Shown here piece after piece: positions 1 through 32,948 of a DNA stretch of 32,948 bases. The translations under genes were made by a program, and so were the position numbers. Positions within the stretch are counted from its first letter, which is position 1. Each line of letters opens with the position of its first letter. The notes below the pieces were generated by a model, which was given only the letters and a program-made list of their open reading frames with translations, was not told the DNA's origin and ran no database searches. Source of the stretch: a virus; IMG/VR virus record IMGVR_UViG_3300030406_000600, positions 1 to 32,948 of that record. The stretch is one strand, 5' to 3'.

Positions 1-89
1 ACATAAGGTTTTACTCTAGTTTCTCCAGAGTACATACCTATGTTTATTTTGTATTCTTTAGCTATCTGTGTCCATAATTGTATGGCAAA
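1..89. repeat. Terminal direct repeat, left copy (contig overlap)
   Basis: Bases 1-89 match 32860-32948 in the same orientation with one difference (T at 78, C at 32937). The offset is 32,859, a multiple of three, and the primase-helicase frame continues unbroken across the join. This is the signature of a circular assembly, so the genome is complete at 32,859 bp. It does not show the physical ends of the packaged DNA. Confidence 0.93.
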
Positions 90-881
90 AGAAGTTTTAC
101 CATGACCAGGAAAACCTGTCATAACACTTACCATACCTTGACCTAACATAACATCTTCATTCCACCCAAACATGGGATTGTATAGTTTTATCTTGGGTGG
201 TTGTGGGATATCATCTAGAGAATAAATACCTTCTAATGGATAATCACATAACCCTTCATTAATTGTCCATTTTATTTCATCTTTACCCCATTTTAATAAG
301 GCTTCATTAACATCCTTAATACCATCAGTCCAATCAAAATACTTACATTTACCATGCCCTAGTATAGAAGCTAAATCCTGTCGTAATGCAAGTCCTGGTT
401 CATCATTATCGGTCAATAATACAAAACAATTAGCTTGGTCTAAACCTTGGTCTAGTGCATCTAATACATACTGATACTTCCTAGACACCTCTGGTTGCTC
501 CGTAGGTGATGCTACAGCACCTGTTGGCACACTTAATATACAATCTATACCATAACCAGCTTCATACAATGCCAGAGCATCCATTTCGCCTTCTACAACA
601 TAGATAGTATTGTTTTTTAAGTTCTTTGAATTTAAAACATTATCAAGATTATAAAATCTTTGTTCTCCACCTTTTTCTTGCTTAAATATCTTCTCTGATA
701 TAGCCCTTGCTTTATAATTTACTCTTTTTCCGTCTAAATTATAGTAACCAAAAACAATACTTTCTAAACTTCTATCACCATATTGGGCTATTCCTCCCTC
801 GACCTTTAAATCTTCTAGTGTTTTCGGACTGATTCCCCTCTTTGCTGCGAATTGAATCACTTTTTCTGTAGGTTTTTTCAT
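1..881 (-). CDS. Primase-helicase, N-terminal part (TOPRIM plus start of RecA-like helicase); continues at 32859
   Basis: This is a T7 gp4-like replicative primase-helicase that makes RNA primers and unwinds DNA at the phage fork. Translation from ATG 881 runs open to the contig edge and joins in frame to 32859-32238, giving 500 aa in total. TOPRIM motifs are VVEGEMDALAL (residues 95-105) and LTDNDEPG (156-163). The Walker A motif is GFPGHGKTS (256-264). The start is chosen because a very strong Shine-Dalgarno, GGAGGAG, lies six bases upstream. The 500-aa length is close to T7 gp4B (503 aa), the form without a zinc domain. The zinc-ribbon module that normally precedes TOPRIM is in the overlapping ORF at 775-1050, in another frame. 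The function is well supported from motifs; how the two parts are expressed together is not known. Confidence 0.93.
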   Translation of the reverse strand, partial: MKKPTEKVIQFAAKRGISPKTLEDLKVEGGIAQYGDRSLESIVFGYYNLDGKRVNYKARAISEKIFKQEKGGEQRFYNLDNVLNSKNLKNNTIYVVEGEMDALALYEAGYGIDCILSVPTGAVASPTEQPEVSRKYQYVLDALDQGLDQANCFVLLTDNDEPGLALRQDLASILGHGKCKYFDWTDGIKDVNEALLKWGKDEIKWTINEGLCDYPLEGIYSLDDIPQPPKIKLYNPMFGWNEDVMLGQGMVSVMTGFPGHGKTSFAIQLWTQIAKEYKINIGMYSGETRVKPY

Positions 882-1050
882 AAAATTCTCCTCCTTTTGC
901 ATTACAATGGTGGCAATAATACACCACACCTTCAGTTTTAATCGTTACACTTAAACATCTATCGTGCTTATTCTTTCTAGTATGGCTACATTCTGGACAT
1001 AAATACTTTCCAGAGTGTTTTCTACTTAATAACCATTCTCTAGTTATCAT
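775..1050 (-). CDS. Zinc-ribbon primase domain ORF overlapping the primase-helicase in another frame
   Basis: A 91-aa ORF whose first 56 residues look like the zinc-binding domain of a T7-type primase: CPEC at 18-21 and CHHC at 46-49, then AKGGEF. In T7 gp4A this domain recognises the priming site and is fused to TOPRIM. Here the ORF reads past the start of the primase-helicase (881) in a different frame, and its last 35 residues are low complexity and basic. It may make a separate zinc protein coupled to the helicase gene, or its first 56 residues may be joined to the helicase by +1 frameshifting. It starts at ATG 1050, overlapping the HTH gene upstream by 11 bases, with only a weak ribosome site. 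A sequencing indel cannot be excluded. Confidence 0.75.
   Translation of the reverse strand: MITREWLLSRKHSGKYLCPECSHTRKNKHDRCLSVTIKTEGVVYYCHHCNAKGGEFYEKTYRKSDSIRSKEGNQSENTRRFKGRGRNSPIW
879..898 (-). promoter_or_regulatory. Strong Shine-Dalgarno plus UUU-U slip site at the primase start
   Basis: On the minus strand GGAGGAG (894-888) is followed by AA, TTTT (885-882) and ATG (881-879). It serves as the ribosome site for the 500-aa primase-helicase. In the frame of the zinc-ribbon ORF the codons are GAA TTT TAT. A one-base forward slip of tRNA-Phe from TTT to the overlapping TTT would put ATG next in the A site and fuse the two ORFs into 556 aa. The arrangement of an SD-like stimulator just before a slip codon resembles the prfB +1 frameshift. 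The initiation role is likely; the frameshift role is inference. Confidence 0.6.
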
Positions 1051-30139: not shown

Positions 30140-30430
30140 AATTTTATATAATGTATATTCTACAGTAATTTCTTCATTAGCTTTAATATTCTTAATGGTA
30201 TGTAACGATAAGCAATCTTTTTTATAAGGAATTTTAATACAATTAGGATTATTAGAATGGTTAATAAACCCACCCAGAGGTGTCCTACTATAGTTATCAG
30301 AAAATCTATTATCATAAATATGTGTTACACCTAAATTAAAATCTATGGGAATATCTCTAATTGCAAAAACTCCTTGCCCATGTATTACTGAATCTCTAAT
30401 AGTTAAAAATGGATGTAATGGATTATACAT
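30131..30430 (-). CDS. SET-domain protein (putative protein lysine methyltransferase)
   Basis: A compact 99-aa SET domain. The motifs are in order: IHGQGVFAIRDIP (17-29, the GxGVFA start), GGFINHSNNPNC (53-64, the RFINHxCxPN-type AdoMet and pseudoknot motif) and NEEITVEYTLY (85-95, the EELxxDY-type catalytic motif). SET proteins move a methyl group from S-adenosylmethionine to lysines in proteins. The small size and lack of pre/post-SET cysteine clusters resemble bacterial and phage SET proteins. It is the last gene of the leftward unit, TAATG-coupled to the DUF1376 gene. The target is unknown and may be a host protein. Confidence 0.85.
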   Translation of the reverse strand: MYNPLHPFLTIRDSVIHGQGVFAIRDIPIDFNLGVTHIYDNRFSDNYSRTPLGGFINHSNNPNCIKIPYKKDCLSLHTIKNIKANEEITVEYTLYKITN

Positions 30431-30873
30431 TACTCATAACCATCATTTAACATCTTTCTAGCCCTTTGTGCAGCAGATAATGTAGGTATAGGTCCTTGCT
30501 TAACTACCTTTGGTTTATTAAATACTTTAGGTTTGTTACTCCATCTTTTTTGCATAGCTTTTTTACCACCTTTACTCTTTTTTACTAAAATATCTTGTAT
30601 CTTACTCTTTAAAGTTTTAATTCTTTTTTGTGTTACTTTTTCTCCGTTATCTATAAGCAAAGGATATACATTAGTCATTATTCTATCAAACCTTCTTTTA
30701 TCTTGTATGCCTAATATATTCTGTATATGCCTTTTAAACACACTACAATCCTCTTGGAGGTACATTGTACTAATTAAAGTTATGTATGCACCTTTTTCTT
30801 CTAAAGTTAATACAGAGACATCTGCTAACCAATCAGCAGGGTAAAATGGAAAGTAAAATAGTTTTTCTTTCAT
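30430..30873 (-). CDS. DUF1376 (YdaU-like) replication-associated protein
   Basis: A 147-aa protein with the clear DUF1376 opening: FYFPFYPADWLADVSVLTLE, then EKGAYITLISTMYLQEDCSV and ILGIQDKRRFDRIMTNVYPL. This winged-helix-like domain is found in prophage replication proteins such as YdaU, often next to helicase loaders. The C-terminal half is basic (KSKGGKKAMQKRW, SAAQRARKML), suited to DNA binding. It overlaps the HTH gene by four bases and the SET gene by one. It may help start replication or load the phage helicase, but that role is inferred. Confidence 0.83.
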   Translation of the reverse strand: MKEKLFYFPFYPADWLADVSVLTLEEKGAYITLISTMYLQEDCSVFKRHIQNILGIQDKRRFDRIMTNVYPLLIDNGEKVTQKRIKTLKSKIQDILVKKSKGGKKAMQKRWSNKPKVFNKPKVVKQGPIPTLSAAQRARKMLNDGYE

Positions 30874-31055
30874 AGATTCTCCATTATTTTATTCCAAGAA
30901 TATTTATATTTATCCTTGATTTTTTTTAATAAATTTATACTTGCTTTTCTATTTCCTGACAAAAGCATACTTGTATAAGATTTAGATATACCTAACTCTT
31001 TAGACACTTGTGTTAAGTTAATTTTGTTTTCTTTCATTATGTTTTCTATAATCAT
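30870..31055 (-). CDS. Cro/CI-type HTH protein (XRE family)
   Basis: A 61-aa single-domain helix-turn-helix: INLTQVSKELGISKSYTSML (12-31), then LSGNRKASINLLKKIKDKYK. This matches the lambda-Cro-like fold, with recognition helix around SKSYTSML. No oligomerisation or protease-sensitive domain is present, so it is more Cro-like than CI-like. Ribosome site AAAGGAAAAA precedes ATG 31055. It starts in an ATGA overlap with the zinc-finger ORF. It may control the leftward unit; its operator is not identified. Confidence 0.85.
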   Translation of the reverse strand: MIIENIMKENKINLTQVSKELGISKSYTSMLLSGNRKASINLLKKIKDKYKYSWNKIMENL

Positions 31056-31219: not shown

Positions 31220-31382
31220 TTTTCTTTTCTCTTATTTCTTTTCTTCTCACATAATCATCTTGTTCTTCTGGTGTGCGTAAAGTAAAACCATCTCTTAATA
31301 AATTAAATAATTTAGATTCTACTTCATACTTGCTTGGTCTAGTTTTAAACTCCATTTTATAATTTATTACATACTTACTCAT
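31212..31382 (-). CDS. Small hypothetical protein (56 aa)
   Basis: A 56-aa ORF starting MSKYVINYKMEFKTRPSKYE, then VESKLFNLLRDGFTLRTPEE and ending RRKEIREKKNA. Mixed charged helices; no family recognised. Its ATG overlaps the stop of the PP-loop gene as ATGA, and its end overlaps the zinc-ribbon gene by eight bases, so it is coupled on both sides. Confidence 0.65.
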   Translation of the reverse strand: MSKYVINYKMEFKTRPSKYEVESKLFNLLRDGFTLRTPEEQDDYVRRKEIREKKNA

Positions 31383-32170
31383 ACTCCACACATCCCTTCA
31401 TCACATATATCATTAAACATATCCATTTGGTCTTTGTTAGGGTCTAAATCTGCTTCTTCTAAAGGCATATAAGATTTGTGTAAAAATACCTCATCTTCTG
31501 GTTTTCTAGTAGCATTTCTAATCTTTCTGTCTACTTCTACTACTTCTTTCCACATTTCTTTATCATTATTTTTAATATCTAACCAAAAATCATTTGAATG
31601 ATAAGGGCAAAAAGTACAAGCAGATTTTTTAGGCATTGGATGATTATGACTTTTTAACCATTCTATGCAATCACCTCTATTAAATTTCTTATCAAATACT
31701 AAAGGATAATCATTTTTAATATAAGGTAATCTACTTTCTTTACATCTTACCATCTCATCTCTGGATATACCTATAACCATTTCTACTATAGTACCCTTTG
31801 GTACTCTTTGGTATTTTTTTAAACCTAGTAATTCTCTTATCTTTTTATAAATAGGTTGTATTTTATATTCATTAGTGCATTGACGCATAGTAAAACCTTT
31901 TTTACCTGTTTTATTATTAATGGTATATGTAGGTATTGCTAAAAAGTTATATTTACTAGATAACATATCTTCTTTTAAATTACCTTTAGATACAATATGC
32001 ACAGGATAAGACACTCTACTTTTTAAATATTGTAACCAATCATAAACATATTTAGGTTCATTTTGTGTATCAGCAAATATAGCACAATCAACCATAGGCA
32101 ATTCTCCATACTCTATCATTAATGCTACTGTGCTGCTTTGTACTCCTGCACCTAAAGATAATACTCTCAT
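31379..32170 (-). CDS. PP-loop 'PAPS reductase'-family protein (adenine nucleotide alpha-hydrolase fold)
   Basis: A 263-aa protein. The PP-loop is LSLGAGVQSSTVAL (4-17), which binds ATP or a related nucleotide. Further family motifs are IFADTQNEPK (31-40), RQCTNEYKIQPI (96-107) and a late Cys pair ACTFCPY (C185, C188) that could hold metal or sulfur. In this superfamily PAPS reductases, ATP sulfurylase-type enzymes and DNA or tRNA thiolation enzymes share the fold. The phage branch with GAGVQSST is often labelled PAPS reductase without proof. It may act in nucleic-acid sulfur modification rather than sulfate assimilation. Ribosome site AGGAATATTATA; TAATG overlap with the micropeptide upstream. 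Confidence 0.82.
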   Translation of the reverse strand: MRVLSLGAGVQSSTVALMIEYGELPMVDCAIFADTQNEPKYVYDWLQYLKSRVSYPVHIVSKGNLKEDMLSSKYNFLAIPTYTINNKTGKKGFTMRQCTNEYKIQPIYKKIRELLGLKKYQRVPKGTIVEMVIGISRDEMVRCKESRLPYIKNDYPLVFDKKFNRGDCIEWLKSHNHPMPKKSACTFCPYHSNDFWLDIKNNDKEMWKEVVEVDRKIRNATRKPEDEVFLHKSYMPLEEADLDPNKDQMDMFNDICDEGMCGV

Positions 32171-32238
32171 TATAATATTCCTGCGTTCTGTAAACCTATA
32201 AAGGTATAAATTATCGTATAAATAAATAAATATTCCAT
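32170..32238 (-). CDS. Putative 22-aa transmembrane micropeptide
   Basis: A 22-codon ORF (MEYLFIYTIIYTFIGLQNAG, then IL) that is hydrophobic over residues 3-15. Its ATG overlaps the helicase stop as TAATG, and its own stop overlaps the PP-loop gene ATG as TAATG. It thus exactly bridges the two genes, with AAGGATTTAGAATA as possible ribosome site. The double overlap is hard to get by chance and argues that ribosomes read through it. It could be a real membrane peptide or a device that couples translation of the two enzymes. Confidence 0.5.
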   Translation of the reverse strand: MEYLFIYTIIYTFIGLQNAGIL

Positions 32239-32948
32239 TATTCTAAATCCTTTCTTTCTTGCCAATCGTGTTTTTTATCTTCTTCTATAATCTTTTCAAA
32301 ACATCCTGTGTCTAAATTCATTTGTATATCTAATATTCTAGGGTATCCTAACTCCTCATAACGAGTTTTGCAAATAGTTAACAAACTATCCGTACATCTT
32401 GAACCATCTTCATTCTCAAATTTAGGTCGCCATAAGCTAAATATATGGTCTGGTTTATTAAACCAATGAGCAGAACCTGCAATCTGATAAGCAGTTGGTG
32501 CAGAGTTACCCATCTTCATATCTGGCTTTGCAGGATGTGCTAGTACCATAATATGTATATCTAATATTTTAGCTAAATTAGTAAGATGGTCTAAACACTT
32601 GCCTATCCATGCAGTTTCGGACATTTTACCAAACTCTGGTGTTTCTAGTTTATTCCAAGGGTCTAATACAAATGCACCCATACCAAATCGTGCCTTCATA
32701 TCGGATATTTTATCACACATCCAGTCAAAATTAGGACAGTTATTAGGATGATTAAGAAATACAAAATGTTTGCGTATAAATTCATCTGCTTGGTGTTTTT
32801 CTTCATCTGATTGCTCCCATTCTAGTTTTTTATGATAAAATGTTCTTATATTTCTTTGCACATAAGGTTTTACTCTAGTTTCTCCAGAGTACATACCTAT
32901 GTTTATTTTGTATTCTTTAGCTATCTGTGTCCATAACTGTATGGCAAA
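32238..32948 (-). CDS. Primase-helicase, C-terminal part (RecA-fold helicase); continues from position 1
   Basis: The remaining part of the replicative primase-helicase, ending with LD-LE-type residues RKDLE at 32238. Read with the part at 1-881 it makes one 500-aa protein; bases 32860-32948 duplicate 1-89. After Walker A (in the other part) come SGETRVKPY, Walker B GAFVLDPWN (catalytic-type D at about residue 360) and motif H3-like text IMVLAHPAKP. Next is the DNA-binding and arginine-finger region QIAGSAHWFNKPDHIFSLWR. It would form a hexamer on the lagging strand. All helicase motifs look intact, so the enzyme should work with a host polymerase, since the phage encodes none. Confidence 0.93.
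   Translation of the reverse strand, partial: FAIQLWTQIAKEYKINIGMYSGETRVKPYVQRNIRTFYHKKLEWEQSDEEKHQADEFIRKHFVFLNHPNNCPNFDWMCDKISDMKARFGMGAFVLDPWNKLETPEFGKMSETAWIGKCLDHLTNLAKILDIHIMVLAHPAKPDMKMGNSAPTAYQIAGSAHWFNKPDHIFSLWRPKFENEDGSRCTDSLLTICKTRYEELGYPRILDIQMNLDTGCFEKIIEEDKKHDWQERKDLE
32860..32948. repeat. Terminal direct repeat, right copy (contig overlap)
   Basis: The second copy of bases 1-89. The single mismatch (C here, T at 78) changes a Gln codon from CAA to CAG on the minus strand and is silent, as expected for a natural variant in a phage population rather than an error that breaks the gene. Confidence 0.93.

Follow-up and report, generated by a model that had tools for sequence, protein, structure and literature searches.

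In the phage genome studied here, and in a large and old set of relatives, a T7-type primase has very probably been split, in the distant past, into two overlapping genes, such that the zinc ribbon representing the primase ZBD is encoded separately, carries an overprinted basic tail and presumably acts in trans. The sequence analysed is the whole of a 32,948-nt stretch (the window; IMGVR_UViG_3300030406_000600, positions 1-32,948) from an uncultured marine phage, and comparison with the sequences of its relatives establishes the gene structure, its single origin, the dual coding of the overlap and an initiation signal for the second gene that is situated inside the first. Since the overlap is under selection on both proteins, the ribosome would enter each of the two reading frames at a normal translation start of its own and not slip from one into the other.

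The zinc-ribbon open reading frame (775-1050, minus strand) encodes 91 aa, of which the last 35 form a basic C-terminal tail. Its core, upstream of the overlap (883-1050, minus), contains the cysteine pairs C18-x2-C21 and C46-x2-C49 and the residues KGGEF, as a sequence-only reading of the window had described. Of the primase-helicase, a TOPRIM plus DnaB-like protein, the N-terminal part occupies positions 1-881 (minus), and its ATG (881-879) lies in the +1 frame with respect to the zinc ribbon. The gene is cut by the contig ends and continues over the circular join into a C-terminal part at 32238-32859 (minus). The ends share an 89-bp terminal direct repeat (1-89 and 32860-32948, with a single mismatch at position 78, T versus C), so that the contig is circular or terminally redundant; the 500-aa TOPRIM-helicase of the earlier reading, one base out of phase with the zinc ribbon, is obtained only if the contig is closed via this repeat. 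Within the zinc-ribbon codons for K-G-G-E is the Shine-Dalgarno (SD) sequence of the helicase, AAGGAGGAG (888-896, minus), which is followed by the UUUU run that had been proposed as a slip site (882-885, minus) and is not conserved among relatives, and then by the ATG, in agreement with the join as first reported. Absent from that reading is a further, conserved feature: past the helicase ATG, another 35 codons of the zinc-ribbon frame are free of stops. The zinc-ribbon and primase-helicase genes thereby overlap by 107 nt (775-881, minus), a region that encodes both the zinc-ribbon tail (YEKTYRKSDSIRSKEGNQSENTRRFKGRGRNSPIW-stop) and the first ∼35 helicase codons and that is designated dual-coding on the basis of synonymous constraint, conservative wobble changes and the avoidance of stop codons in relatives.

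Upstream, a winged-helix open reading frame (HTH_39; 1040-1297, minus) overlaps the start of the zinc-ribbon gene by 11 nt at its 3′ end and belongs to the same replication operon, which also holds a RusA-like resolvase and an exonuclease. A PAPS-reductase-like protein (PHROG 424, a family of auxiliary metabolic or host takeover functions; 31379-32170, minus) is encoded just downstream of the primase-helicase, and the product of 30430-30873 (minus) matches the phage "primosomal protein" PHROGs 9327 and 3992 and is adjoined by a small HTH regulator at 30870-31055. The terminase is ∼45% identical to those of pelagiphages and the capsid protein 49% identical to that of a Bradyrhizobium phage.

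The 500-aa protein resembles T7 gp4-type enzymes, which are hexameric helicases that prime at a specific trinucleotide, in combining TOPRIM and a DnaB-family helicase in one polypeptide. Pfam matches to Toprim_2 (1.5e-7) and DnaB_C (4.9e-7) both exceed the cut-off, PHROG 239 (DNA primase/helicase) is matched at 3.4e-67, and T7 gp4 structures (5ikn, 6n7i, 1q57) rank best when the primase-helicase profile is compared with the PDB. The catalytic acidic residues of the TOPRIM domain, E97-G-E99-x-D101 (EGExDA) and D158-x-D160 (DxD), are invariant across the aligned window clade, and their retention suggests that a template reader is still required for priming. The N-terminal ZBD is absent from this polypeptide, being out of frame in the window and in 210/210 dereplicated split loci. 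It is the small open reading frame that has the CPxC-CxxC zinc ribbon of a primase ZBD (CPxC...CHHC in the window), homologous to the fused ZBDs of relatives (hhalign probability 99.8, E 2.6e-28). AlphaFold modelling of this protein indicates that residues 1-57 are ordered and the tail disordered; a fold search of the PDB with the model returned generic zinc ribbons only, with no significant match to these or to the solved ZBD folds. Tails are basic in composition (26% K+R vs 11% D+E in 152 tails).

To collect relatives, viral contigs were scanned five times with proteins or profiles and prokaryote genomes once; the best 80 matches of each scan yielded ∼400 loci, in which the frame relation was called by locating both domains with HMMs. 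Among the matches listed, 282 loci had the +1 arrangement, 87 were in frame and one was apparently different; after dereplication the figures were 210 split, 80 fused and one apparently different. This exception (L312) was rejected, as it is +1 at the junction start and has an indel further on, and loci whose two genes seemed not to overlap proved to be artefacts of start choice. The +1 offset is therefore common to every resolvable split locus listed, down to ∼30% identity. It is identical in ∼30 close relatives from other assemblies (70-100% identity), and the close in-frame relatives that would have spoken against a genuine offset were sought and not found, all close relatives listed being out of frame. 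A DNA-level search of phage records using the junction gave no match. At the protein level, the split arrangement is present in a Methylocapsa contig and also in a cultured phage, Bradyrhizobium phage BDU-MI-1 (KY940711.1), in which the zinc-ribbon gene is unannotated and located just upstream of, and overlapping, the annotated primase/helicase CDS at 1245.

In a tree of the TOPRIM-helicase built without the overlap region and with T7 as outgroup (a quick search with SH-aLRT support and no bootstrap), the split loci fall on one side of a branch with an SH-aLRT of 100 and are nested among fused relatives. As the split loci form one clade, the constant +1 phase is attributable to one inherited event and not to repeated convergence; fused reversions within the clade may exist beyond the best 80 matches per scan. 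A natural recombinant was also encountered, in which locus L016 (∼1000-1300) and locus L008 (3832-4104) have near-identical helicase genes and different zinc-ribbon modules, that of L016 having a longer CHHC...GANKGGNY loop. From these two sequences it appears that one zinc-ribbon module can replace another without loss of the +1 overlap.

Several lines of evidence indicate that both frames of the overlap are open and selected as protein, as expected of an overprinted gene pair. In 95% of split representatives, vs 5% of fused controls, no stop interrupts the zinc-ribbon frame over 28 codons, and synonymous resampling would seldom leave it so free of stops (Fisher p=2e-4 over 38 lineages, the effect being weak in any single GC-rich lineage; the pair-based statistics accompanying these openness and resampling figures used disjoint rather than phylogenetically independent pairs). 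The constraint statistics that are relied on come from 57 phylogenetically independent pairs with non-overlapping tree paths, in which synonymous change in the helicase frame was depressed within the overlap (observed/expected 0.73, z=-9.0), 46/57 pairs falling below expectation. The ratio was lowest just 5′ of the zinc-ribbon stop (0.60) and rose to 0.91-0.97 after it, with fused controls at ∼1.0. In addition, wobble changes that are silent in the helicase were conservative in the zinc-ribbon frame in 105/210 cases within the overlap vs 1389/4449 outside (p=3.6e-8), which suggests that selection acts on the protein and not on an RNA structure. Part of this signal may be mutational, because the third-frame control was also slightly raised (55/248, 22%, vs 736/4720, 16%; p=0.0075). 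Both effects are present in the superclade of the window alone, where synonymous change had an observed/expected ratio of 0.79 (z=-3.5) and conservative wobble changes amounted to 47/80 vs 385/1142 (p=1.6e-5). The conserved W-stop that ends the tail was considered as a mere by-product of helicase Tyr-Gly-Asp codons, given that TAT GGT GAY forces W-stop in the other frame, a reading that is overruled by the synonymous-constraint and wobble-change tests over the whole overlap. In 28 loci of one GC-rich subclade (L350-L398) the zinc-ribbon frame runs on into the helicase gene for 71-155 codons without a stop, and a reduction of synonymous change reaches as far as about codon 120, as measured on pairs that are disjoint and not strictly independent; the overprinted tail may thus be much longer in these sequences.

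The second gene has an initiation signal of its own. An ATG, GTG or TTG follows the last cysteine in 203/210 split loci, mostly 19-25 nt on, and the seven loci that lack such a codon between the last cysteine and the conserved core all have an upstream start. Two of the seven have CTG at the place; other codons at the usual place are CTG at SD distance in L365 and L390 and CTA in L354 and L355, where the choice of start may differ. Of the junction starts in the standard position (n=188), 93% have SD complementarity of at least 4 nt and 31% of at least 6 nt, compared with 30% and 1%, respectively, of the start-like codons inside these genes. The SD is mostly encoded in Gly-Gly codons that the zinc ribbons of the family carry anyway.

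The UUUU run behaves differently. It was detected in 10/21 distinct junctions of the window clade (41 listed loci with >55% identity to the window), the remainder having UAUU, UACU, UUCU, AAUU or AACU at the slip position, and in 29/188 split junctions overall. At the junction it is the amino acids that are conserved, mostly as Glu followed by Phe/Tyr and Tyr, while the wobble positions on which slippage would depend vary freely, UUU interchanging with UUC and UAU with UAC. The recombinant described above constitutes a natural test, since L016 has AAUU in place of UUUU in front of its L008-type helicase gene. Of the sequence features whose conservation had been suggested as a check on slippage, the SD and the out-of-frame state are thus kept and UUUU is not. 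Furthermore, a fusion made by slippage would have a linker, measured from the last zinc-ribbon Cys to the Arg that is conserved in the R-G-I motif (by position, T7 R84), of 15-26 residues vs 34-59 in fused relatives and 44 in T7, and the distributions do not overlap.

Among the alternatives to two separately initiated proteins, the one that survives best, improbable as it is, combines them with slippage, two separate proteins being the rule and a little fusion being made by slippage in the UUUU lineages. The occurrence of UUUU together with an SD in about half of the distinct window-clade junctions is compatible with such a mixture. Against it stand the linker and slip-site arguments just given and the slip-codon wobble bases, which show no sign of being held.

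Programmed +1 frameshifting as the general mechanism, which the sequence-only reading had put forward as a means of obtaining the two T7 forms, has still less in its favour and is judged very unlikely. In this scheme a slip at UUU-U after the SD would yield a 556-aa ZBD-primase-helicase (the arithmetic, 56+500, is sound) and plain initiation the 500-aa protein. A strong SD is indeed found 4 nt before UUU-U in the correct phase, but it serves initiation at the ATG equally well, and the +1 phase, universal in the clade, is accounted for by one origin. The window-clade junctions that lack UUUU keep an aromatic or Asn codon at the slip position without the slippable base, as UAU-U, UAC-U, UUC-U, AAU-U and AAC-U, and the A-site codon in the window is UAU, neither a stop nor rare, in contrast to release factor 2, where CUU_U before UGA is highly conserved (PMC5009743). 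Nor does the zero frame terminate at the junction; its stop is 35 codons on, and for about that length it is selected as protein. Non-conservation of the slip site, selection on the zero frame and the length of the linker led to the rejection of UUU-U slippage as a general mechanism, the SD and start codon being sufficient to explain the junction. The other possibility entertained in the same reading, a zinc domain that works as a separate protein, is borne out as regards gene structure and selection; such a protein would presumably act in trans.

Artefacts that shift a T run by one base are common, and animal Twinkle has lost its primase function. The human case is described in PMC9860392. 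An explanation of the offset as a sequencing or assembly indel, or of the zinc ribbon as a decayed pseudogene in a phage that works without a ZBD, is nonetheless refuted by the comparative data and almost certainly wrong, as the offset is common to >200 contigs from many habitats and to a cultured phage, all four cysteines are invariant in an alignment of 42 diverse split zinc ribbons, and tail and core are both under selection.

The preferred explanation, a primase split into two overlapping genes, can be elaborated as follows. A T7-type primase-helicase would have been split once, long ago, probably by a frameshift in an ancestor that already possessed an internal start for a short form, as T7 gene 4 does. 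The first gene would now specify the ZBD as a free protein of ∼90 aa, whose frame runs through the start of the second gene and so appends a basic, disordered extension of ∼35 aa, overprinted on the N-terminus of the helicase. The 500-aa TOPRIM-helicase would be the product of the second gene and the putative equivalent of 4B, the short T7 gp4 form that has no ZBD; its translation would begin from a dedicated SD that lies within the conserved Gly-Gly codons of the zinc-ribbon gene. A single message would serve for both proteins. Recognition of the priming site would probably fall to the free ZBD, which would contact template and primer in trans on the helicase hexamer, and the tail may stand in for the lost covalent linker as a tether or docking element.

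A broader proposition, towards which we lean with some reserve, is that in this whole clade of T7-like replisomes, which extends over phages and prophages of very different kinds, the ZBD is a detachable subunit used for priming, that the tail is a docking element replacing the linker, and that docking of the ZBD and tail sets the priming frequency. If so, this frequency would be determined by the number of free ZBD-tail proteins docked on the ZBD-less helicase hexamer, and the tail may bind the very helicase N-terminus on which it is overprinted. Textbook primases of phages and bacteria have the ZBD covalently linked to the polymerase as a fixed feature, and its action in trans has been deduced from proteins that were dissected. 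In the split clade the two parts are naturally separated and kept apart across lineages that are only ∼30% identical, so that priming in trans becomes directly testable with a ∼90-aa subunit. The overlap also represents well-supported dual coding within a core replication gene. The zinc-ribbon gene is easily missed by annotation, as its absence from the BDU-MI-1 record illustrates, and the primases of the clade may consequently be recorded as ZBD-less. The domains and enzymes concerned are of known kinds, and the out-of-frame overlapping split with a selected tail is a variant of them; searches of the literature available without subscription found no account of a primase whose ZBD is encoded by an overlapping gene of its own.

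Compared with known systems, the junction resembles the +1 frameshift site of prfB (release factor 2) in having an SD a few bases before a U-rich P-site codon, but differs from it in having no in-frame A-site stop, a slip codon that is not conserved and a zero-frame product that extends beyond the site and is selected. The primase-helicases of vB_RanS_PJN03 (UXN81028.1) and an elemovirus (QMP85537.1) are sister lineages by sequence with a homologous ZBD, which in these proteins is in frame and joined by the linker of 34-59 residues. In DnaG and T4 gp61, too, a TOPRIM polymerase domain comes after the zinc ribbon. The ZBD of these primases is covalently linked, whereas in the window phage the ZBD is free and it is the helicase that is fused to the polymerase domain. 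In DnaG the ZBD acts on the polymerase domain of another molecule (Corn 2005, as cited in PMC12418098). In T4 the zinc ribbon is immediately followed by a motif that binds the helicase (PMC10359460), which is the position occupied by the overprinted tail in the window phage.

There is also a likeness to T7 gene 4 (gp4A, 63 kDa; gp4B, 56 kDa), in which TOPRIM and a DnaB-type helicase are also found in one chain, the ZBD is encoded immediately upstream and a ZBD-less form arises by internal initiation. The 56-kDa form retains helicase activity and lacks primer synthesis (PMC9198812). T7 has an annotated out-of-frame gene as well (gene 4.1; 336-458 of the T7 locus), situated in the ZBD part of gene 4 and ending on the 4B start codon, though its frame relation differs from that of the split-primase overlap. 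In T7 the form with the ZBD is read in frame (566 aa) and the short form starts at codon 64 (PMC9198812), whereas the ZBD of the window phage is always out of frame with the helicase and comes from a separate gene, which has a selected tail of its own.
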